57,455 nt of DNA from Thiobacillus denitrificans DSM 12475 (GTDB lineage Bacteria > Pseudomonadota > Gammaproteobacteria > Burkholderiales > Thiobacillaceae): contig NZ_AQWL01000003.1 in NCBI RefSeq assembly GCF_000376425.1, positions 1 to 57,455 of the forward strand, given 5' to 3'. The position numbers and the translations under genes are program-made. Below the pieces are notes generated by a model. It was not told where the DNA came from, ran no database searches, and saw nothing but the letters and a program-made list of their open reading frames with translations. Numbering within the stretch: position 1 is the first letter of the stretch; the number at the start of each line of letters is the position of its first letter. Shown here in pieces: positions 7,326 through 17,543 of this stretch.

Positions 7326-7420
7326 GCAAATCAGGGTTCATCGACAACATGGGTTTTCAAGGACGGACCGCGGGGGTGTGAAACAGCACGCTGCGCCGGT
7401 TGTGCAGGGAGGGTCGAATA

Positions 7421-8071
7421 ATGGGCCGCAAACTGCGCAGTCCGACACGGACGATTTCGAATCGAGGCGAGCTGCCTCGATTCATCGGGCAATTCCCCTG
7501 CACCAAGGGCGCCACCTTCCCACTCACGTTCGACTCGCTGAGCGCACTGCTGTGCGGCGTTTACCTGGAATGGCGCTCAGACGTTGTGAGCGTGGCCTTC
7601 GAGCCTCGCGAGTACCGGTTTGAGGAAACCTCAGACCTGCCCGCGCTGACGTGTATTCCAGACTATGAAGCCATCCTGGACACCGGCGAGCTGGAATTGT
7701 TTGAGGCGAAATACGCTGAGGCCGACCTGCGCGATACCGAGCGGACGAAGCTGAAACTAACAGCCGCCCATTGCAAGCAACAGGGAATCCCCTACCACGT
7801 GATTTACCGGGACATCCTGGAAAAGGACGGCTTTATCGACACGTTGATGCTGTTGCGGCCCTACGGACGACTGCAGTTTTCGACGGAAACGGCGACCGAG
7901 GCCGAAAAGCGGCTGTCCCGTTTTGACGAGGCCCCACTCGAAATCTGGCGTGAGCGCGCCAGGCATGAGGGCGTTCCCGCCGGCATGCTTTATCACTTGC
8001 TCTACCACCAGCGCCTGCCCCTGGTGTATCGACCGCTGATTCAAGTGGAGCTCATGCCGTGTCGCGCCTAG
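7421..8071 (+). CDS. tnsA: TnsA-like transposon endonuclease
   Basis: A 216-residue protein of the TnsA endonuclease family, which cuts the 5' ends of Tn7-like elements together with TnsB. The restriction-endonuclease-like core is seen as IPDYEAIL followed by LELFEAKYAEADL, giving the Asp and Glu-x-Lys metal-binding residues (about residues 80-100). The rest carries the helical C-terminal region. The start is ATG 7421 with GGGAGGG upstream. Its stop codon overlaps the next gene by 13 bases if that gene uses GTG 8059. First gene of the transposition operon. Confidence 0.85.
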   Translation: MGRKLRSPTRTISNRGELPRFIGQFPCTKGATFPLTFDSLSALLCGVYLEWRSDVVSVAFEPREYRFEETSDLPALTCIPDYEAILDTGELELFEAKYAEADLRDTERTKLKLTAAHCKQQGIPYHVIYRDILEKDGFIDTLMLLRPYGRLQFSTETATEAEKRLSRFDEAPLEIWRERARHEGVPAGMLYHLLYHQRLPLVYRPLIQVELMPCRA

Positions 8072-8733
8072 TGTGTATGGACCTACGGCCAGGCCGCATC
8101 GTGGCAATTCGGGGTGTTCGCCATCGAATCCATGAGGTTCAATCGAGCGGTCCCATGCTGACCCTCATGCCTGAAGCTGAAGGCGAACCTGCTGTCAAAA
8201 TGTCGCGCACCGAATTTGCGGCGCTGCTGGTACTTGAAGAAGCGGAGATGGTCGACGAACTTGAAGACCCGCATCGCGAGATGACCCGTGAGGTCACCAA
8301 CCTGTCCTTTTCTCCCTTGCTCCGGATTGTCGACTGGCACGCAAAAATATACTTATTGCGTCGAATGATGCGGTGGTCACGCTCAAGTCCCAAATCACCC
8401 AGATTTCGAGCGGCCTATGTCGAGGCTGAGCGTGAACTAAACGAATATCAGCTAGCTTGCGGCCTTGGTCACTGCAAGACATGGTCGCACTGGACTTTTT
8501 ACCACGACATGCAGCGTTGGCGGTCCTCCAAATACGCTATGGCCGCGATTCAGCGTAAGGGCGTGGAATATTGCCCATGGGCGACGCCCGCTCCGCTATA
8601 TGAGGAGGCGCGCAAGCTTGCGCACGAAATCACCCTGAAGCATCCGGGCTGGACGATTGAAAAGGTTCACGAGGAGGCGCTCAAGAAGCTTGAGCCGTCC
8701 TATGCCCGGCCAAAGGAGGCGAATCGTGGCTAG
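8059..8733 (+). CDS. tnsB: TnsB N-terminal half (DNA-binding region) as a separate ORF
   Basis: A 224-residue protein that matches in position and character the part of TnsB before the catalytic core: an N-terminal beta region (PGRIVAIRGVRHRIHEV), then helical DNA-binding segments rich in Arg/Trp (HCKTWSHWTFYHDMQRWRSS). No DDE residues are present. Start chosen as GTG 8059, overlapping tnsA; ATG 8077 is an alternative. It ends at TAG 8733, eight bases inside the next ORF, which begins exactly where the TnsB catalytic domain would. In Tn7 these are one chain, so this is either a natural split or an old frameshift that has acquired a start site. Confidence 0.65.
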   Translation: MSRLVCMDLRPGRIVAIRGVRHRIHEVQSSGPMLTLMPEAEGEPAVKMSRTEFAALLVLEEAEMVDELEDPHREMTREVTNLSFSPLLRIVDWHAKIYLLRRMMRWSRSSPKSPRFRAAYVEAERELNEYQLACGLGHCKTWSHWTFYHDMQRWRSSKYAMAAIQRKGVEYCPWATPAPLYEEARKLAHEITLKHPGWTIEKVHEEALKKLEPSYARPKEANRG

Positions 8734-10060
8734 AAGAGAACCATCCCTGGTTTCCTACGAATTCTTCAGGCGAATCTCCAAACACATAGACAAATTCGAG
8801 CTTCAAAGCCGGATGTTGGGAACGCTCTACGCGACGCAATCGATTCGGGAAATCGGGCGATTGCACACTTATTCACCTGGAGAGCGAGGCGAATACGACT
8901 ACACGAAATACGCGCTCTGGCTATATCCGCATGCAAATTGGAGCGAGCCGATGCTTTATTACACGGGCTTTGGCATTGACCATGAGTCGACCGTCATCAA
9001 GGGCTTTACGTGTACGGTCGACCCTTCCGCACGCGACGCCGTACGCCTCTATCGGAACTGTGCGCTGCCGGCCCCGCTTTGGCTCCCGCAACATCTTCGG
9101 ACGAAAGCGCATCACTGGGATGTGTTTGGCATCGACCGGATTTCCGTCATCGACAACGCAATGGACCTGACTGCCAACTCCGTTGTCCTGATGTATCTCG
9201 TACTCGGAGTGATTCTGCTTCGGATGCCGCCAAGGAGAGGGGACCTTAAAGGTTTGGTGGAACGCACGCAATCCTCAAAGCAATCGGGGTATATCTCTAC
9301 GCTTCCGGGCTACGTTTCGCAGAAGCACATGGGCTCAAAAAAATTTGGTGGGTTCGACCCACGCTACAAGAAGGTGCGAGACAGGGCCAAGGCCAAAGCC
9401 AACCTGACGGTTGCTGACTACGAGGCGAAGCTGCTCGAAACCACTCTGGACTATAACCACGCCAAGCATCCCCAGCTGAGAAAACCACGCATCGAGGTCT
9501 GGCGTGACGGTCAGGAACTCGCCCCCCTCGTCTTGCCGACCGGGAACCTGCAAATCCGCTCCGTCTACGCGCTGACATATGAGACGAGCCTGACCCGTGA
9601 AGGCGTGTAAGTCGAGACACTCAAATTCAACAGCCATGAGTTGCACATGGCGTACAGGACTTACACGGGCATGGTGCACGTCAAGGTGAATCCGGATGAC
9701 GTATCAAGCGTGCTTGTCTTTGTCCCCCAGGTTAATCACCCGATTGAAGCCTTTTTGACCACGTTCGACCTGCGTGAACCCATGACGCTGGAACTATTGA
9801 GGGTCTTATTGGCGCGCCTGGAATCCCGCTACAGAGGCGACAAGGCCTGGAAGGAAGACATTGGGTTCGCGGTCCTGGACGAACTGCAGCGGGTCCAAAC
9901 GGGACCCGTAACACGCACGCCTGGCAAAACCGTACGTTCAGATGCCCAGGCCGCAACCCATGCTGCCGCAGCCGCGCCTGCCCTCCCCACACCCAAGCCC
10001 GCGACAGAAGGCCTCAGCCTGTCAGAACTCCTACGGGGCGGTAAGCCCGATGACAAGTAA
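8726..10060 (+). pseudogene. tnsB: TnsB catalytic half (DDE integrase core) with an in-frame TAA
   Basis: The frame starts at GTG 8726 behind AAAGGAGGC and encodes the TnsB core: YDYTKYALWL (first Asp), GFGIDHESTVIKGF, SVIDNAMDL (second Asp) and KGLVERTQ (Glu), giving a full DDE set in the order of the family. After 294 codons a TAA at 9608-9610 interrupts it, yet the same frame stays open to 10060 and continues with VETLKFNSHELHMAYR and HVKVNPDDV, the typical Mu-type C-terminal beta-barrel. So a single nonsense codon removes about 150 C-terminal residues, including the tail that contacts TnsC. A TTG/ATG restart near 9641-9647 is possible. The last bases overlap tnsC. Either recent inactivation, a sequencing error or translation in two pieces. 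Confidence 0.75.
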
Positions 10061-11000
10061 TTACCTGCTGCCATTTCAGCAACGGTTGCTCGAACAGGTT
10101 GAAACCGCTCTCGACGAGATTGCTGACGGCGGCAACAGCCAGGGCATCCTGCTTATCGGCGCCTCCGGTTCCGGCAAGACTCATGGGCTCGACGTACTGG
10201 CCGAGGGGTATCCGCCTACCCTCGAAAACAACCAGCGGATTACGCCATGCTGCCGTGTGGCGGTGACGGCCCAGGCCGACGCCGTCGCGACTGCCGCATC
10301 CGTTTTGCACCAACTCGGCAAGCCCTTGCAGGTCAGCACCAGGCCTAATTTGAAACTGCTGGAACCCGACATGCACAGGGCACTGCGTGCGCATCAAGTC
10401 CGGATTCTTGTTTTCGAGGAGTTTCACAATGCGTTGCTCGCAAGCACCCCGCAGCTTCGGGGACAAATAGCCCGCTTTCTGAAGAACCTGTGGAATCTGC
10501 ACCCCGAAGGCTCGCCACTGGGCTGGGCGACGCCAGAGCCGGGACGGGGCGACCAGCGTTTGGTGGTGATTGTTTCCGGCACCGACGAATTGCTGAAGGT
10601 GTTCGAAAAAGATGCCGAACTTGGGAGCCGGTTCGGCTGTGTGGTTATGGCAGAACAGGTCGCTTTCTTCCCGCCGGTGGCATTCGAGAACTTCCGGAAC
10701 GTTTACGGCAGCATTGCGGGCAGATTTGGCCTCTCGAAACGCCTTTCGCCAGAGGATGATTCCACGGTGGCTCGCTGCATGCTGGCGAGCGGCCCTCATC
10801 TCCGGAAACTCGAAAAACTGCTACAACGCATGTCCACCTTGGCATCTCGGCTGGACGGGACCAAGACCGACCTCGAGCTGCTGGCGGCGGCGTTTGACGC
10901 GGTTGGCGGCGCAACCGGGCCCTCCATCAATCCGTTCAAGTTGACGGAGGCCGAGGTGACGGCGCAAGTGGCGAAAGCCATTCCTCGCCAACGTAGATGA
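10050..11000 (+). CDS. tnsC: TnsC/TniB-type AAA+ transposition regulator
   Basis: A 316-residue ATPase that links the target selector to the transposase. Walker A GASGSGKT is at residues 37-44, Walker B ILVFEE at about 119-124, and VIVSGTDEL near residue 180 resembles the sensor-1 strand. I chose ATG 10050 (MTSNYLLPFQQ), which overlaps the end of the tnsB frame by 11 bases; the in-frame ATG at 9942 lies inside tnsB and would add an unlikely Pro-rich tail. tniQ starts two bases after the stop. Intact as far as can be seen. Confidence 0.85.
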   Translation: MTSNYLLPFQQRLLEQVETALDEIADGGNSQGILLIGASGSGKTHGLDVLAEGYPPTLENNQRITPCCRVAVTAQADAVATAASVLHQLGKPLQVSTRPNLKLLEPDMHRALRAHQVRILVFEEFHNALLASTPQLRGQIARFLKNLWNLHPEGSPLGWATPEPGRGDQRLVVIVSGTDELLKVFEKDAELGSRFGCVVMAEQVAFFPPVAFENFRNVYGSIAGRFGLSKRLSPEDDSTVARCMLASGPHLRKLEKLLQRMSTLASRLDGTKTDLELLAAAFDAVGGATGPSINPFKLTEAEVTAQVAKAIPRQRR

Positions 11001-11001
11001 A

Positions 11002-12567
11002 ATGAAGATGGAGCCTGACTGGCTGCCGGGGTGCTATCGCAACCTGCCCTGCCTGCCTGGCGAAGCTCTGCCAGGATATCTGCTCCGGCTGGCCGAGGCG
11101 AACGGCTACGAAAGCATTGCCGCCTTGCTACGAGCTGCGGGCATCAATACCCGCGGGCTGAATATGGGCTATTCGTCGAAGCTGCGCACCGATGCGGAGG
11201 CCCTCGCTATCCTCGGGCGGATGGCAGTCGGCGACCCGGGACACCTGAGCGGGCATGCCGCCAAGGTTCTGGATGGGCCGGCGTTTTTCATGCGGGAGTG
11301 CCGGGTCGATAGTGATGCCCTCCTTCACGAGCGTGTCCAGGTCTGCCCCCAGTGCCTGGCCGAGGACGGGTATATCAAGGAGGAGCTTGAGCTTGCCCCG
11401 GTTACGGTGTGCAGCACGCACAAGGTCCTCCTGGTCGACGAATGTCCTGATTGTGGGCGTTCGCTGGATTGGAAACGGTCCAGCCTGATGGCCTGCGGAC
11501 ATTGCGGAGCGGACTTGCGGATGGCGACCCCAACTCCAGTTGGCGCTGACGTCTGCGAGGTTGCAGAGGATTTTGCGGCGCTGGCGCCATTTCGCCTCGT
11601 TACCCACGGCGGCGAGCCAGCAGCCGACATGTGGGACCTGATGTTCCGTATCTTCAAGGCGCTGGCACTGCCCGACGCTTTCTGGGCCTCGACGGAGTGG
11701 CCTCGGCGAGTCGTCCAGTTCATGCCTGTCAAGGAACGGCATGCAGTCGTGGGGTTGCTGGCGAAGGCGCGTCGTGGAGGCAGCTATTTCCTGTCTGACT
11801 TGCAGCCCAAGGCCCGCGCGGCTCTTGCTCCCATGCTTGCGATACCAAGGCCGTACGTATTGGAACAGTGCGCGCTTCTGCTTTTGCAGTCGGAAGCCGG
11901 AATAACCAAGGAATACGCCGAAGCGATGTGTTCGCAGCAGCCCCTGCCACGAGCAGCAAAGGGGGTGGAGATTTTTAGCGGGCGCCCGCCTTCATTACGA
12001 ACGCCAGACGAGGTTGCGGCGTTCCTGGCTTCGGACTGGCAAACAGTTGAAGGACTTATGGCACGCAAGGTGCTGACGAATCCCATTGATAGCGAGCATG
12101 GGTATGACATCGACGAATTGCTGGCTGGTCAGACCTTCCTTCATTTGGGGGTTTTTACGCTGGCGGAAATGACTGCCATTGTGGGCGTCCCCTTGGACTG
12201 GGACGACCTTGTTCACTCCAATTTCCTTCGTCCATGGAATTCCAGAAACCCCTCTGACCTTCGCGTGGCAGTCGGCGAGGTGGTCTCGATTCAGATGGAG
12301 TTGGCGGCGAAATGGGCTGCGAACGGACGGCCGACTAGCGGTGTTCTGCTGCGCGACTTTGCGTTGCGGACCGACCGGCCGTTCCAGGTCGTATCCGAGG
12401 CCGTCGTACTTGCTTTACGTGGGGACCTGAACCCATTTGGCTGGGGACCGCGGTTCGATTGGGGTGGCCTCAAGATTTCCGAGCAAGACGAGAGGCGCTT
12501 GTCAGAGATGTTTCGCACCCAGCTTTCTGGTTCCTCTAAAAATCATTTCGGTCACGCGGGAGTCTAG
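11002..12567 (+). CDS. tniQ: TniQ/TnsD-family target selector
   Basis: A 521-residue TniQ-family protein. The N-terminus (LPCLPGEALPGYLLRLAEANGY) is the typical TniQ opening. Zinc ligands follow at about residues 113-175: CPQC, CSTH, CPDC and CGHC. The long C-terminal part (about 200-521) would be the specific DNA-recognition region, longer than in Cascade-linked TniQ and in the range of TnsD-like proteins, so a site-specific attachment target is likely. No tRNA or glmS is visible in the window, so the target is unknown. It is followed four bases later by a small gene. Confidence 0.83.
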   Translation: MKMEPDWLPGCYRNLPCLPGEALPGYLLRLAEANGYESIAALLRAAGINTRGLNMGYSSKLRTDAEALAILGRMAVGDPGHLSGHAAKVLDGPAFFMRECRVDSDALLHERVQVCPQCLAEDGYIKEELELAPVTVCSTHKVLLVDECPDCGRSLDWKRSSLMACGHCGADLRMATPTPVGADVCEVAEDFAALAPFRLVTHGGEPAADMWDLMFRIFKALALPDAFWASTEWPRRVVQFMPVKERHAVVGLLAKARRGGSYFLSDLQPKARAALAPMLAIPRPYVLEQCALLLLQSEAGITKEYAEAMCSQQPLPRAAKGVEIFSGRPPSLRTPDEVAAFLASDWQTVEGLMARKVLTNPIDSEHGYDIDELLAGQTFLHLGVFTLAEMTAIVGVPLDWDDLVHSNFLRPWNSRNPSDLRVAVGEVVSIQMELAAKWAANGRPTSGVLLRDFALRTDRPFQVVSEAVVLALRGDLNPFGWGPRFDWGGLKISEQDERRLSEMFRTQLSGSSKNHFGHAGV

Positions 12568-12570
12568 GTA

Positions 12571-13005
12571 ATGTCCAAAAACCTCAACGATAGCCAAGAT
12601 GTAGACCAAGAAGCACAACGCATCCTGCGGCTGGCCAAAGCATCGGCAATCAAGGCCCGTCTGGAACTGGTGAGACAAAAAGAGATTCTGCCTGCGCGAG
12701 AGTTCTCAGAGGCGCTGGGAATTTCGCTGGGGGCCCTGAACCGGGAGGTCAAAGCGTATCGGCTATTTGCGATGGAGTTAGCTGGTGAAACCTACTACCC
12801 TGCCTTTTATCTGCACAGGCCTCCCGACCGGATGAAGATTAAAAGGGCGTGCAAAGCCTTGGGGGACCTGGACGGCTGGGAAAAGTGGCGCTTCTTCACG
12901 ACACCCAAGGGGTCTGTTGCCGGAAGGACGCCGATACAGGCACTGGAAGGCGACGAGGCACTACAAGCCGCTATCGCCTCGGCAGTGGGATTTGCTGAGC
13001 GTTGA
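12571..13005 (+). CDS. Small helical protein with Xre/MbcA/ParS-like C-terminus
   Basis: A 144-residue protein starting four bases after tniQ, so probably the last gene of the transposition operon. Residues about 45-65 (ARE FSEALGISLGALNREV) look like a helix-turn-helix. The C-terminal 45 residues (GWEKWRFFTTPKGSVAGRTP, then IQALEGDEALQAAI) resemble the toxin-binding domain of Xre/MbcA/ParS antitoxins. No RES-type toxin lies next to it. It may be an autoregulator of transposition or a solitary antitoxin-like protein. Assignment is by pattern only. Confidence 0.5.
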   Translation: MSKNLNDSQDVDQEAQRILRLAKASAIKARLELVRQKEILPAREFSEALGISLGALNREVKAYRLFAMELAGETYYPAFYLHRPPDRMKIKRACKALGDLDGWEKWRFFTTPKGSVAGRTPIQALEGDEALQAAIASAVGFAER

Positions 13006-13089
13006 CCCGGGCCTCTTGAGCAAATTGCTGTAGCATCTTTAAGTGGGGGAGGTGCTTACCGCTAACCAAAATCTCAATAAGGATGGGTA

Positions 13090-14289
13090 GTGCTTAGTCG
13101 TTCATCTAAATCAAAATCAAATTCTGATAGCTTGGAAGACCTATTAAGGGATAGGCCATCCGACGAGAAGCAAGGAGCAACTGCAACTCAGGGTTTCGTC
13201 TTTCAGCAGTGGTGGGCTGCGCTTTGTGTCGCAGAACTGCTAAGAACCCCAAACGATTTTGCAGTCGGGATGGAGGTTAAGGAGGATGTCGCATTGCTAG
13301 ACTCCTCTAATTCGCCGACAAAGGTTGAATTTTGCCAAGTCAAAAAGAATGAACGGGCCGTTGCGTGGACGCTTAAGGAACTGCATAAGCAGGGGCAAAA
13401 ATTAAAGGTGGGCGGCCATGAGCCCTCAACTCTTGCGAAACTCTACAAGCGGCGACACGAATTTTTAGGACATCCTACCAAGCTCAAGTTCGTTTCCAAT
13501 ACGAGCTTTAAAGTACCCGCTGAAGACGAACGCACAGTTAATAGCCATGTGACTAACCTTGGCGACCTGACGCCTAAGCAGCAAAACGTTATCAAGGAGG
13601 CATTGGCCTCCCAGTTAGGCATCTCGGCGAGCGAGGTAAACCTCGACGAATTTAGCTTGCAGAGGACTAACTTGCCTCTCGGTGAGCAAGAAGTCTTTGT
13701 TGGCGGCATGCTGAGCCAGTTGTATGAGGAAGGTCACATACCATTTCAAGTCGCACAGCCAACAGTTGCTGCCCGAATACTTGCTTCAGAGCTGCAGACC
13801 AGGGCATCCCGCACGAACTACGCACGGACATATGACGAGCTCAAGGAGCGTCTCTTTACTCGTTCCGATGCGTTACGCACCCTTACTCTGACCTCCCAAG
13901 CAAAGCCGACTCTTAACGTCCTATTCGATGAGGCGATTGAACGCCTGAATATTGAACAATACGACTTCATGAGCATCAAGCGCATGAAGGCTGAAAGAAT
14001 TAATGTTCTTGCGGACGCAGTTGACCGCTCCAACATGCTTTTTCGTAATCTTGCTGCTGCACTTGTGAATGCGCGTGAGTCGACCCTTAACGCTGCCTCC
14101 CAAGGGACTACGTTGGGCGCGTTAATGGAAACCCTCGTCTCCAACGCGAAGCAAATTACTCCCTCTGAATTTGTTGGTAGAAGTCCTGATTACGTGAATT
14201 CGCTCGCACTACTGGTACTGAATGATGGAATCGACATCGACGTATGCACTCCTGAGGCTGGTAAGAAATCTGAGGAAGAACAACAATGA
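13090..14289 (+). CDS. Cap4/DUF4297-type dsDNA nuclease-domain protein
   Basis: A 399-residue protein. The N-terminal domain (about residues 25-200) has the marks of the Cap4-type endonuclease family: GATATQGFVFQQWWAALCVA, then GMEVKEDVALL and VEFCQVKKNE, which supply the Glu, Asp and Gln-x-Lys residues of a PD-(D/E)xK active site. The C-terminal 200 residues are helical and would sense or bind a partner. Start GTG 13090 with AAGGAT upstream. Its stop overlaps the start of the SMC-like gene by four bases, so the two are coupled. Cap4 domains are effectors in CBASS, Lamassu and related ABC-three-component defence systems; here no cyclase is present. Confidence 0.72.
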   Translation: MLSRSSKSKSNSDSLEDLLRDRPSDEKQGATATQGFVFQQWWAALCVAELLRTPNDFAVGMEVKEDVALLDSSNSPTKVEFCQVKKNERAVAWTLKELHKQGQKLKVGGHEPSTLAKLYKRRHEFLGHPTKLKFVSNTSFKVPAEDERTVNSHVTNLGDLTPKQQNVIKEALASQLGISASEVNLDEFSLQRTNLPLGEQEVFVGGMLSQLYEEGHIPFQVAQPTVAARILASELQTRASRTNYARTYDELKERLFTRSDALRTLTLTSQAKPTLNVLFDEAIERLNIEQYDFMSIKRMKAERINVLADAVDRSNMLFRNLAAALVNARESTLNAASQGTTLGALMETLVSNAKQITPSEFVGRSPDYVNSLALLVLNDGIDIDVCTPEAGKKSEEEQQ

Positions 14290-16028
14290 ACCGGCGCGTG
14301 ACCTTCAAGACGCTTTGGCTCGTATCCGAAAGGGACAGGAAAGCAAGGCGGCAGATATTCAACCCAAACAAAACCCTCTTGCTAGGGGAAAACGGGACGG
14401 GGAAGTCTAGAGTCACCAAGAATCTATTCTGGGTATTTGGCTGCGCTCCCGAGAAACATACCATCGCCAGCTGGGACCCGGATACCGTGGCCGCTCTGGA
14501 ATTCGCATACAGGGGTGATGACTACCACTACCTTGTTTTGCGACAAGGAAAACGGCTCGGCCTGTTCTCGATGGATGGCGGCCTGTTATTTGCAGCTGAC
14601 CATATGTCGGCGTGGGAAGCCTATATTGCGACATTTTTCGGGTATCACCTGAAGTTGCAGCGCCCAAACTCAACTCGATTCAGCCAAGCAGGACTCGACT
14701 ATCTAACGCTGCCCTTTTACCTTGACCAGGACGGCAGTTGGGGAGCCAGTTGGGACACATACACAACTTTGGGGCAGTTCAAGAATTGGAAGCCTGCGGC
14801 TTTCGAGGCGTTCATTGGCTTGCGCCCAAACGCATACTTTGCAGCGAAACAGCTCAGGGACGAAGCCCATGCAAAGCTGAACGAGAAGCGGAAGGAGCTT
14901 GAGGCCCAACGACTGGCATTCCATCGAGTACAAGAGGTCTTACCAAGTAACGTCCCCACGCTTGATTTGGATGCGTTTAAAGCGGAACTGGCCCAACTCG
15001 GGCATGAAGCCATAAAGGCTCAGCAACAACAAGCTGCTCTGCGTGGAAAACTTGTTGCTTTGGTCAACTTGCGAGAAAGAGTTCAGACTGAACTCCAGCT
15101 TGCACAGTCTGCACATCGTGAGCTTATGGCTGACCTTACATATCTTTCGGACTTGCCTACCAAATCCCTCGAGTGCCCCACTTGTGGCACTGTCCATGAG
15201 AACTCTTTTCACGCGCGATTGCAGCTTGCCCAAGACTTCGAGTCCATGTCAGCCTTGGTCGCTGAGCTAAGCGAGAAGCTCACAAACGCTCGCGAGGAAG
15301 AAGCAATAGTTCGGGGCGACCTCCAAGAGATGGAGAAAACGCTAGTTAAAGTAGATGACCGAATGCATGAGAAAAAAGCGGAGCTACGCCTTGAGGACGT
15401 TCTGGCGGCTCATAGCAAAAAAACTCTCAGCTCGGTTTTCCAACATGTAACTAGCGATTTGAGCTTGGCAGTTAGTGAACTTGAGGAAGAGGAAGAGTCA
15501 CATAACTCCAAACTCAAGTCGTACGATGACAAAAATAGGTTGAAGGAGGTTGGAAAATACTTCGCAGACCAAGTACGCAGCCTTTCAAATCTTTTGAATG
15601 TTCCAAGTGACGAGCAATTATCAAAGCCTAAGCCGGGGGGGCGAGCTCAAACTGGGGGTAGTTCAGCCCCCAGGTCCATGTTGGCTGTGCATCTAGCCCT
15701 TCTGCGGACAAACGTGGAGCATGGTGACTCTCCATTATTCCCATTCGTGGTCGACACTCCGCAGCAATCCGGTCAAGACGATAAAAACCTCCGCTCCATG
15801 ATTGAAGTTCTTGGACGTTCTGCAGGAGATAACCACCAAGTAATTCTTGCTGTTGAGAAACTACCCGACATGGTCGACGCCTCTGGTTTTGAAATCGTGA
15901 AGCTCGAAACCAAAAAAGGAGCGCTGTGTTCAGCAGACTTTGATAGTGCTGTCCATTTTTTACATGAGCCCTTGAAGCGTTTGAAGGACCGCATTGAAGA
16001 GCAACTCGCGCGACCGAGCGAGGCATGA
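14286..16028 (+). CDS. SMC/Rad50-like ATPase with zinc-hook CxxC
   Basis: A 580-residue ABC-type ATPase. Walker A GENGTGKS is at residues 34-41, a coiled-coil region spans about 190-430 and is broken by CPTCG (Cys297, Cys300), a Rad50-like zinc hook. The second ATPase lobe has SSAPRSMLAVHLALL in the signature area and FPFVVDTPQQ (Asp490) as Walker B, with the usual DE replaced by DT. Short coils for an SMC protein, as in defence-associated ABC ATPases. It overlaps the Cap4-like gene by four bases, the arrangement of an effector plus sensor pair. It would be expected to detect phage or plasmid DNA structures; this is inference from Lamassu-like systems. Confidence 0.75.
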   Translation: MNRRVTFKTLWLVSERDRKARRQIFNPNKTLLLGENGTGKSRVTKNLFWVFGCAPEKHTIASWDPDTVAALEFAYRGDDYHYLVLRQGKRLGLFSMDGGLLFAADHMSAWEAYIATFFGYHLKLQRPNSTRFSQAGLDYLTLPFYLDQDGSWGASWDTYTTLGQFKNWKPAAFEAFIGLRPNAYFAAKQLRDEAHAKLNEKRKELEAQRLAFHRVQEVLPSNVPTLDLDAFKAELAQLGHEAIKAQQQQAALRGKLVALVNLRERVQTELQLAQSAHRELMADLTYLSDLPTKSLECPTCGTVHENSFHARLQLAQDFESMSALVAELSEKLTNAREEEAIVRGDLQEMEKTLVKVDDRMHEKKAELRLEDVLAAHSKKTLSSVFQHVTSDLSLAVSELEEEEESHNSKLKSYDDKNRLKEVGKYFADQVRSLSNLLNVPSDEQLSKPKPGGRAQTGGSSAPRSMLAVHLALLRTNVEHGDSPLFPFVVDTPQQSGQDDKNLRSMIEVLGRSAGDNHQVILAVEKLPDMVDASGFEIVKLETKKGALCSADFDSAVHFLHEPLKRLKDRIEEQLARPSEA

Positions 16029-16071
16029 TTGTTTGGTTTGGGCTCACGAGCAGAACCTGCAAACTCACCTA

Positions 16072-16911
16072 ATGGACGACCAAACCCGCTCCCACCTAGA
16101 GTCCATTAAGGCAGAAGTGCTTCGCCGAGTTGGCCGAAACCTTCTGCTTTTTCAGCAGATAGAAGGGTTGTTGAAGTTCCTTCTGGCGAACCACACAGGT
16201 GATGGCACCGTAGAGAATTACCAAACCAGGCATAACAAGCGAGCGGAGTCGGTCAACAAGCAGATGCTTGGCAATCTGGTGGACAAATACGGGTCCGATG
16301 TATTGCAGGACGCAGGTGTGGAGACGCTGGATGAAGAAAATCCAGCTGTACCCTGGATGTCTTTTACGTTCCGGGTCTCTGGTAGCGCCGAATTTGTGGA
16401 GACCGTGCGCAGCGACCTTAAGCTCATGACTGAAGAGCGCAACGAACTGGTACATCACTTCCTCCCACGTTGGCAGCCTGAATCCCCCGAGAAGCTAGGG
16501 GAGGCCCTGCTCTACCTGGACGCTCAGCGAGAGAAGGTGTTGCCAATGCATAAGCATCTGCGTAACACCGTCGATGGCATGCAAGCAGCAAGGAAATTGC
16601 TGCATGACTTCATTTCGAGCGAGGAATACCAGCGGCAGGACGAACTGATGTGGTTACAAGCCAGTCCTCTAGTCGAATTGCTTCGTGAAGTGACCAGCCA
16701 AATTCATCGGACGGACGGATGGACCTACCTAGCGCACGCCGGAAAGCTGGCAAACAAGAATTTGCCGGATGATATTCGGAACCTCAAAGAGCGTTACGGC
16801 TTCAACACCCTCAAGAAACTGCTCATCGCCTGCGAAACCTTTGATGTATACGATGAGCCCCTGGCCAACGGTACATTTCGGACGCTGTACCGGATTCGTC
16901 GTGTCGACTAG
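16072..16911 (+). CDS. HEPN-motif plus LOTUS (OST-HTH) domain protein
   Basis: A 279-residue protein, start taken at ATG 16072 (MDDQTRSHLESIK), 43 bases after the SMC-like gene; upstream in-frame starts overlap that gene. The helical N-terminal part contains ERNELVHHF with Arg123 to His128, a good HEPN RNxxxH motif. The last 70 residues (DGWTYLAHAGKLA, RYGFNTLKKLLIACETFDV, TLYRIRR) form a LOTUS/OST-HTH domain, an RNA-binding winged helix. The combination suggests RNA binding, possibly RNA cleavage. It could be the third part of the nuclease/SMC cassette or an independent cargo gene. Confidence 0.65.
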   Translation: MDDQTRSHLESIKAEVLRRVGRNLLLFQQIEGLLKFLLANHTGDGTVENYQTRHNKRAESVNKQMLGNLVDKYGSDVLQDAGVETLDEENPAVPWMSFTFRVSGSAEFVETVRSDLKLMTEERNELVHHFLPRWQPESPEKLGEALLYLDAQREKVLPMHKHLRNTVDGMQAARKLLHDFISSEEYQRQDELMWLQASPLVELLREVTSQIHRTDGWTYLAHAGKLANKNLPDDIRNLKERYGFNTLKKLLIACETFDVYDEPLANGTFRTLYRIRRVD

Positions 16912-17543
16912 CCAGTTCTAAGCTCTGGTAGTGCCACCCCTGAATCGATAAACAAGCTCGGGGCTCGCTACATAGGCAGAAGAGCGGACACAAATCATAG
17001 GGGTTTCTGACAGCGTTACTAGAATTTCTGGTGGCGTTCCTCATGATTCACTCAAGAGTTCCCCTTACTGGCTTGATAACAAAGGTCTTCCGGGGGAAAC
17101 CCGCCTTGATTTGCTCATCCAGTCCACTTGGCATCCAAGTTATTGATTTTATTGGCGTGGCGTTACTAAAATTTCGTTGTCCCGACACTTGCTGCTGTTG
17201 GGGCAGCAGATATTTGCAGCACTCGAGCAGCGTGTTTCACGCATAACGCGTAACCTGGCCCGAAAGTCTCCCGGTCTCCAGTCGACGGTCACTGACTTAA
17301 TACCTTAGCCGTCGTGAGCGCCAGGCAGCGCTGCGGGCGTGTCCGGAATTCCATTGTCCCGACAACTACTTCCACCTCCTACCTCTTACAGGGCCCCATG
17401 TATCTCGCGTTGCGAAGTTCGTCGCGCACGCGCGGCGGCTGGTGCTCGACTTCGGCCGCCAAAGAAATTTGGCGTCGCAGGAATACGGATTCAGATATGA
17501 GCTAAAAACGAAGTGTCCTTGAACCATCACGACGGAGCCACAC
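16912..17543. other. Gene-free stretch between island and p-cresol cluster
   Basis: Short ORFs here have no ribosome binding sites or protein-like composition. The stretch carries three related degenerate repeats (17013-17028, 17160-17187, 17338-17365), an inverted copy of the IHF-like sequence near 7251 (17137-17148), and then a switch from AT-richer to GC-rich DNA at about 17370-17400. The 50 bases before 17544 hold the leader and weak ribosome binding site (GACGGAG) of the aryl-alcohol dehydrogenase gene. No tRNA is seen. Confidence 0.6.
17013..17365 (-). repeat. Candidate distal transposon end with TnsB-type repeats
   Basis: GCGTTACTAGAATTTC (17013) and GCGTTACTAAAATTTC (17160) agree in 15 of 16 bases. 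The second runs on into AATTTCGTTGTCCCGACA (17170-17187), which agrees in 16 of 18 bases with AATTCCATTGTCCCGACA (17348-17365). Read on the minus strand the outermost copy begins TGTCGGGACAATGG, and TGT is the usual terminal triplet of Tn7-like elements; spacing of about 150-180 bases between copies fits a Tn7-type end. No matching end was found before tnsA, so this remains a candidate. Confidence 0.45.

Follow-up and report, generated by a model that had tools for sequence, protein, structure and literature searches.

A window of 57,455 nucleotides (nt) from Thiobacillus denitrificans DSM 12475 (contig NZ_AQWL01000003.1, positions 1 to 57,455) very probably carries a two-gene Lamassu system (LmuA and LmuB, without LmuC), set as probable cargo in a Tn7-like element. 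The gene behind it, for a HEPN-LOTUS protein predicted to cut RNA, is unrelated and moves independently. At the level of sequence, this reading is based on nuclease and ATPase genes that are intact and overlap, the ATPase having a zinc hook. A preliminary description had instead grouped lmuA, lmuB and the HEPN-LOTUS gene (hereafter the third gene) as a candidate three-gene defence cassette. The three open reading frames (ORFs) it listed were found intact at their places, the third being probably listed too long. Positions of all features are collected in Table 1.

The product of lmuA matched Cap4_nuclease in Pfam (E = 1.5e-26) and, as the top of sixteen PADLOC matches at E ≤ 1, the LmuA model PDLC03849 (E = 5.1e-62). 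The lmuB product matched the PADLOC LmuB model PDLC00249 over residues 4-566 (E = 2.7e-130), and gave a weak match to the solved LmuB chain PDB 9ux7 (E = 1.8e-8). The profile search against defence-system models, proposed earlier as a check, placed these two genes in Lamassu and left the third without any PADLOC match at E ≤ 1. As had been noticed before, the nuclease and ATPase genes overlap by 4 nt (ATGA), lmuA stopping at 14289 and lmuB starting at 14286. Residues D66, Q83 and K85 of LmuA, which from their presumed roles we take to be a PD-(D/E)xK-type active site, were invariant in 8 of 8 aligned sequences. In the alignment of LmuB with seven relatives, N36, G39, K40 and S41 of Walker A and V488, D490, P492 and Q494 of the Walker B region were likewise invariant (8/8). 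This Walker B lacks a Glu beside the Asp and has a Gln two residues past the Pro; LmuB proteins are described as generally having Gln in place of the Glu (PMC10586767). The zinc hook, a feature of many but not all Lamassu members, is present in the LmuB of the window, and the CPxCG motif was also seen in five of the seven relatives (L103, L105, L108, L109 and L112) and was missing from L110 and L111. The Cap4 and LmuA/LmuB matches, together with the hook, bear out the view that a Cap4-type effector stands here beside a zinc-hook SMC/Rad50-like ATPase, following the logic of Lamassu.

Judged from its sequence, the lmuA-lmuB pair is an ordinary two-gene Lamassu without LmuC, divergent from its relatives. 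No gene for LmuC lies between lmuA and lmuB, which overlap, and neither the 144-residue ORF upstream nor the third gene had a PADLOC match at E ≤ 1, the presence of an LmuC model in that library not having been checked. In agreement with the earlier statement that no cyclase of the cyclic oligonucleotide-based anti-phage signalling system (CBASS) is present, none was matched in a scan of six window ORFs (9942-16908), nor in ten upstream ORFs (Pfam). The lack of a middle component, taken with the third gene, had been read as the mark of an unrecognised system, a reading that found no support. PMC8565338 puts the share of Lamassu systems with LmuC, named type II, at about 10.2% (371 systems), and PMC10586767 describes a wider Lamassu superfamily in which three components are the usual case, with LmuC absent from some systems; since both accounts know pairs without LmuC, its absence does not set the present pair apart.

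Relatives of the system likewise take the form of LmuA-LmuB pairs. Among plasmids, LmuB was matched in 29 records, of which 19 are from Klebsiella, and 8 of the 29 were opened. A DUF4297/dsDNA-nuclease gene lay directly upstream of LmuB in seven of these eight, and the eighth (L107) begins at that point. The LmuB match extends over two annotated genes in L106, the two genes likewise overlap by 4 nt in L110 and L111, and a further gene stands close behind LmuB in L108 and L112; the third-gene profile matched no LmuB locus. A genome of the same order (G396) holds a two-gene pair whose next downstream ORF is listed on the opposite strand. LmuB was found in 2 of 41 genomes (our own and 40 relatives) and in 2 of 369 genomes of the class, where the second was a weak partial match and at most three candidates per genome were scored among the matches listed. 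With Lamassu systems lacking LmuC (type I, as against PADLOC's type II) the pair shares the gene order, the near-full-length profile matches, the Cap4/DUF4297 effector, the Walker A, the zinc hook, a Walker B without the usual Glu and the 4-nt overlap seen in some relatives; it differs in its distance from other LmuB proteins (only 33% identity to the nearest one found), in the extra downstream gene and in the Tn7-like setting. LmuA and LmuB are also common to Lamassu type II/DdmABC, whereas LmuC was not found in the window.

The third gene had been listed as a 305-residue ORF (15994-16911), opening at its first start, TTG 15994, and overlapping lmuB. It probably begins at ATG 16072, 43 nt past the LmuB stop; this start is preferred because DNA homology to the nearest copy, in a Thiobacillus metagenome-assembled genome (MAG; L025), begins at 16070. 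The product is predicted to be a HEPN RNase with a LOTUS domain. The HEPN superfamily has been defined by an Rx4-6H motif with a polar residue after the Arg, together with an Ex3[KR] motif (PMC3710099), and both were found in the third protein: R123-N124-x3-H128, at the end of a predicted helix (residues 106-129) of its AlphaFold2 model (predicted local distance difference test score, pLDDT, 92), and E31-x3-K35, which fits the Ex3[KR] pattern. The key residues of the two motifs are invariant in the 40 family members aligned. Pfam HEPN_RiboL-PSP matched 7 of the 40 (best E = 0.0011), and the fold match of the model to HEPN toxins was no better than to other helical bundles. The LOTUS domain is weak in the copy of the window (Pfam E = 0.02, below the cut-off) and clear in relatives (33/40 at E ≤ 0.1, best 9e-11; 1.7e-9 in L069). 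The earlier assignment of a HEPN RNxxxH motif and a LOTUS domain was upheld. Compared with HEPN RNases of the Rx4-6H superfamily, the protein has the RNx3H and Ex3K motifs in common and differs by its fusion to a LOTUS domain. Bacterial NYN/DUF88-OST-HTH proteins likewise combine a predicted RNase with a C-terminal OST-HTH, the nuclease here being HEPN and not the DUF88 reported for almost all bacterial OST-HTH proteins (PMC2848206).

The three genes probably do not form one system as proposed, because the third gene stands beside Lamassu in no relative examined. The alignments of LmuA, LmuB and the third gene were each turned into a profile; run over all loci fetched, these profiles revealed that (i) LmuA or LmuB occurs in none of the 103 other loci matching the third gene, within the DNA fetched, and (ii) the third gene occurs in none of the 12 LmuB loci (10 distinct places). 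The preliminary description had itself named the absence of the third gene beside the pair in other genomes, together with a lack of protection, as telling against its proposal; the first of these is what we observed in the loci examined. Among the 41 genomes mentioned above, the third gene was matched in three and LmuB in two, the two occurring together only in our own genome; two of the three third-gene matches were partial and C-terminal (G373, with an internal stop, and G399). Seven of the 369 class genomes, our own included, had a third-gene match, four of them to the LOTUS part only. The nearest copy (L025) is 88% identical in protein, and its DNA aligns with the window only over 16070-16898, that is, the gene itself, with 86% identity inside the gene versus 27.5% in the 120 nt upstream. 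The HEPN-LOTUS gene thus apparently moves independently and is probably not part of Lamassu.

Several points weigh against this separation. From 209 third-gene relatives in the scan of species genomes, the best 79 loci were kept and inspected, to which IMG/VR added 9 and plasmids 11 records, 5 of them opened. Of the 103 loci, which include a few places fetched twice and some matches to the LOTUS part only, just 75 have at least 4 kb upstream. The third gene lies on the lmuB strand, 43 nt after the LmuB stop, and a promoter scan gave no promoter-like site between the two, a silence that means little because the region yielded 1 site versus 3.0 in shuffled sequences; co-transcription of lmuAB with the third gene is possible. 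As the nearest LmuB relatives are just 33% identical, a recent local partnership in this lineage is also possible.

The same strand and short gap are what one would see in a real three-component system, in which the HEPN-LOTUS protein would replace LmuC as the middle component or serve as a second effector, cutting RNA once LmuB senses foreign DNA; the presence of distant HEPN-LOTUS relatives inside another DNA-targeting operon (hsdS/hsdR, 16 of 103 loci) points in the same direction. We nevertheless regard such a system as unlikely, given that no co-occurrence was found in the 103 and 12 loci, that homology to the nearest copy ends at the edges of the gene, that the HEPN-LOTUS protein has no PADLOC match at E ≤ 1 and that Lamassu without LmuC is already known. 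We give still less credence to the idea that the locus has lost its function and is decaying. In favour of it, the window yielded no left end of the element, and in G392, which belongs to the same genus, a related element has just a shortened LmuA of 276 residues, LmuB being absent from the 36 kb fetched; against it, all three window ORFs are intact, with their motifs kept. A CBASS-like or ABC-three-component (ABC-3C) system merely resembling Lamassu might be suspected, as the Cap4 domain is described as common to CBASS (PMC10586767). This account is highly improbable, being largely refuted by the near-full-length matches of the LmuA and LmuB profiles, and no cyclase or LmuC-type gene was detected among the six ORFs scanned. 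For ABC-3C it is in large part a matter of naming, because ABC-3C is itself assigned to the Lamassu superfamily in the review (PMC10586767).

If the two-gene Lamassu acts as its family would suggest, an LmuB dimer, joined through the zinc hook, would recognise hairpins or abnormal ends in the DNA of phages or plasmids; once bound to ATP, LmuB would release or activate the Cap4 nuclease LmuA, which would cut DNA and harm the cell, so that infection is stopped. The HEPN-LOTUS protein would probably act without Lamassu, its LOTUS domain binding RNA and its HEPN domain cutting it. The locus adds one more two-gene Lamassu of divergent sequence, in surroundings that are probably Tn7-like, and adjacency within a mobile cargo region is no evidence of a shared system. 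The more useful by-product is the HEPN-LOTUS family, whose member in the window has no PADLOC match and whose distant members are repeatedly found inside type I restriction operons.

Because the HEPN-LOTUS loci are a ranked sample and no census, the fractions given for their neighbours are not frequencies. An HsdR gene with the same orientation as the HEPN-LOTUS relative comes at most about 300 nt after it in 16 of the 103 loci (L048, L050, L051, L053, L058, L060, L061, L062, L065, L068, L069, L070, L071, L084, L088 and L091). HsdS lies directly before the relative in 15 of the 16 (in L088 it is 470 nt away), HsdM precedes HsdS in 15, and a gene for a YgjP-like metallopeptidase comes after in 15. 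The neighbour families of type I restriction were confirmed for L069; in a seventeenth locus (L074), HsdR and HsdS appear only as pieces of 44 and 46 residues. These restriction-linked members belong to several genera of Proteobacteria and are 26-31% identical to the protein of the window. Their embedding suggests a portable RNase add-on. The wider proposal is doubtful, and we put it forward tentatively: differing DNA-targeting defence operons, type I restriction-modification (hsdS/hsdR) and here Lamassu, might have recruited the add-on, which would cut host or phage RNA once the DNA-targeting system is blocked or triggered, by analogy with PrrC beside a type I enzyme. The occurrence in type I restriction operons offers a testable lead for a guard-type RNase.

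Other neighbourhoods of the family were also apparent. A gene for a peptidase M78 (ImmA/IrrE-type) lies directly upstream in 12 HEPN-LOTUS loci (L014, L015, L016, L017, L018, L075, L081, L083, L086, L087, L095 and L101), several with recombinase-type genes nearby, and an AcaB-type gene directly downstream in another 12 (L010, L064, L080, L085, L090, L092, L093, L094, L096, L097, L098 and L100), in what appear to be modules of integrative elements. In the 25 largest neighbour clusters, L026 and L029 are the sole representatives of the close relatives (L023-L046) and stand next to genes of recombinase type; pairs of near relatives, such as L037/L046 and L026/L027, have neighbours in common. On a MAG contig (L028:544-1668), the HEPN-LOTUS gene, whose portion present there is 62% identical, has an overlapping PIN-domain gene behind it; in L025, an HD-domain gene (dGTPase type by eye) starts 8 nt after the HEPN-LOTUS gene.

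As to the setting, the placement inside a Tn7-like element was confirmed as far as the Tn7-like genes upstream are concerned, TniB and TniQ being clear; enclosure is likely, with one candidate end only, and lmuAB is probable cargo. Homologues of all the Tn7-like genes (50-65% identity) are present in G392, a single-contig genome. Neither of the two TnsB-like ORFs was matched by any TnsB-type Pfam model; because the G392 element has homologues of both (52% and 63%), arranged in the same order, the split gene may represent a functional transposase in two parts rather than a product of decay. The shortened LmuA-type ORF carried by that element (L137:6234-7064) adjoins, by eye, AbiE-type toxin-antitoxin genes, and neither LmuB nor the third gene was found within the 36 kb fetched. 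For the candidate right end, the 17-base repeat gave 2 matches, a number reached in 0 of 100 shuffles, while the TTGTCCCGACA core alone did not exceed chance, 2 matches being reached in 17 of 100 shuffles. A left end was not found within the window, whose first base is also that of the contig. A second TGTCGGGACA-type end, inverted, is present in our own genome on contig C25 (5980-6008; L127), beside genes that by eye are of conjugation type, so that a related element is or was elsewhere in the genome; the bases next to it, CTTGC, differ from the ACTAC that follows 17364.

Table 1. Positions of the Lamassu genes, the HEPN-LOTUS gene, their motifs and the Tn7-like surroundings in the window.
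Feature	Position	Strand	Basis
TnsA-like gene	7400..8071	+	Pfam Tn7_TnsA-like_N 0.0046, below cut-off; 65% identical to G392 sister element
TnsB-like transposase, two overlapping ORFs (8059-8733, 8657-9610)	8059..9610	+	Position and by-eye DDE pattern
TniB/TnsC-type ATPase	9942..11000	+	Pfam TniB 1.6e-16
TniQ	11002..12567	+	Pfam TniQ 5.2e-13
lmuA, Cap4/DUF4297 dsDNA nuclease, 399 residues, GTG start	13090..14289	+	Pfam and PADLOC profiles
lmuB, short SMC/Rad50-like ATPase, 580 residues	14286..16028	+	PADLOC profile, PDB match, alignment
LmuB Walker A GENGTGKS, residues 34-41	14385..14408	+	Sequence, alignment
LmuB zinc hook CPTCG, residues 297-301	15174..15188	+	Sequence
LmuB Walker B region VVDTPQQ (D-x-P-x-Q)	15747..15767	+	Alignment
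HEPN-LOTUS protein, 279 residues	16072..16911	+	DNA homology to L025, AlphaFold2 model
HEPN E31-x3-K35	16162..16176	+	Invariant in 40/40 members
HEPN active-site motif R123-N124-x3-H128 (Rx4H, RNELVHH)	16438..16455	+	R123, N124, H128 invariant in 40/40
OST-HTH/LOTUS winged-helix domain, residues about 190-279	16639..16908	+	
Candidate element end (right), repeats at 17012, 17159-17187 and 17336-17364, last two ending TTGTCCCGACA	17012..17364	+	

At the start of the contig (2-5776), one run of genes comprises two radical SAM genes, a gene with a peptidoglycan-binding domain, a MauG-like di-haem peroxidase gene and a staphylococcal-nuclease-like gene.

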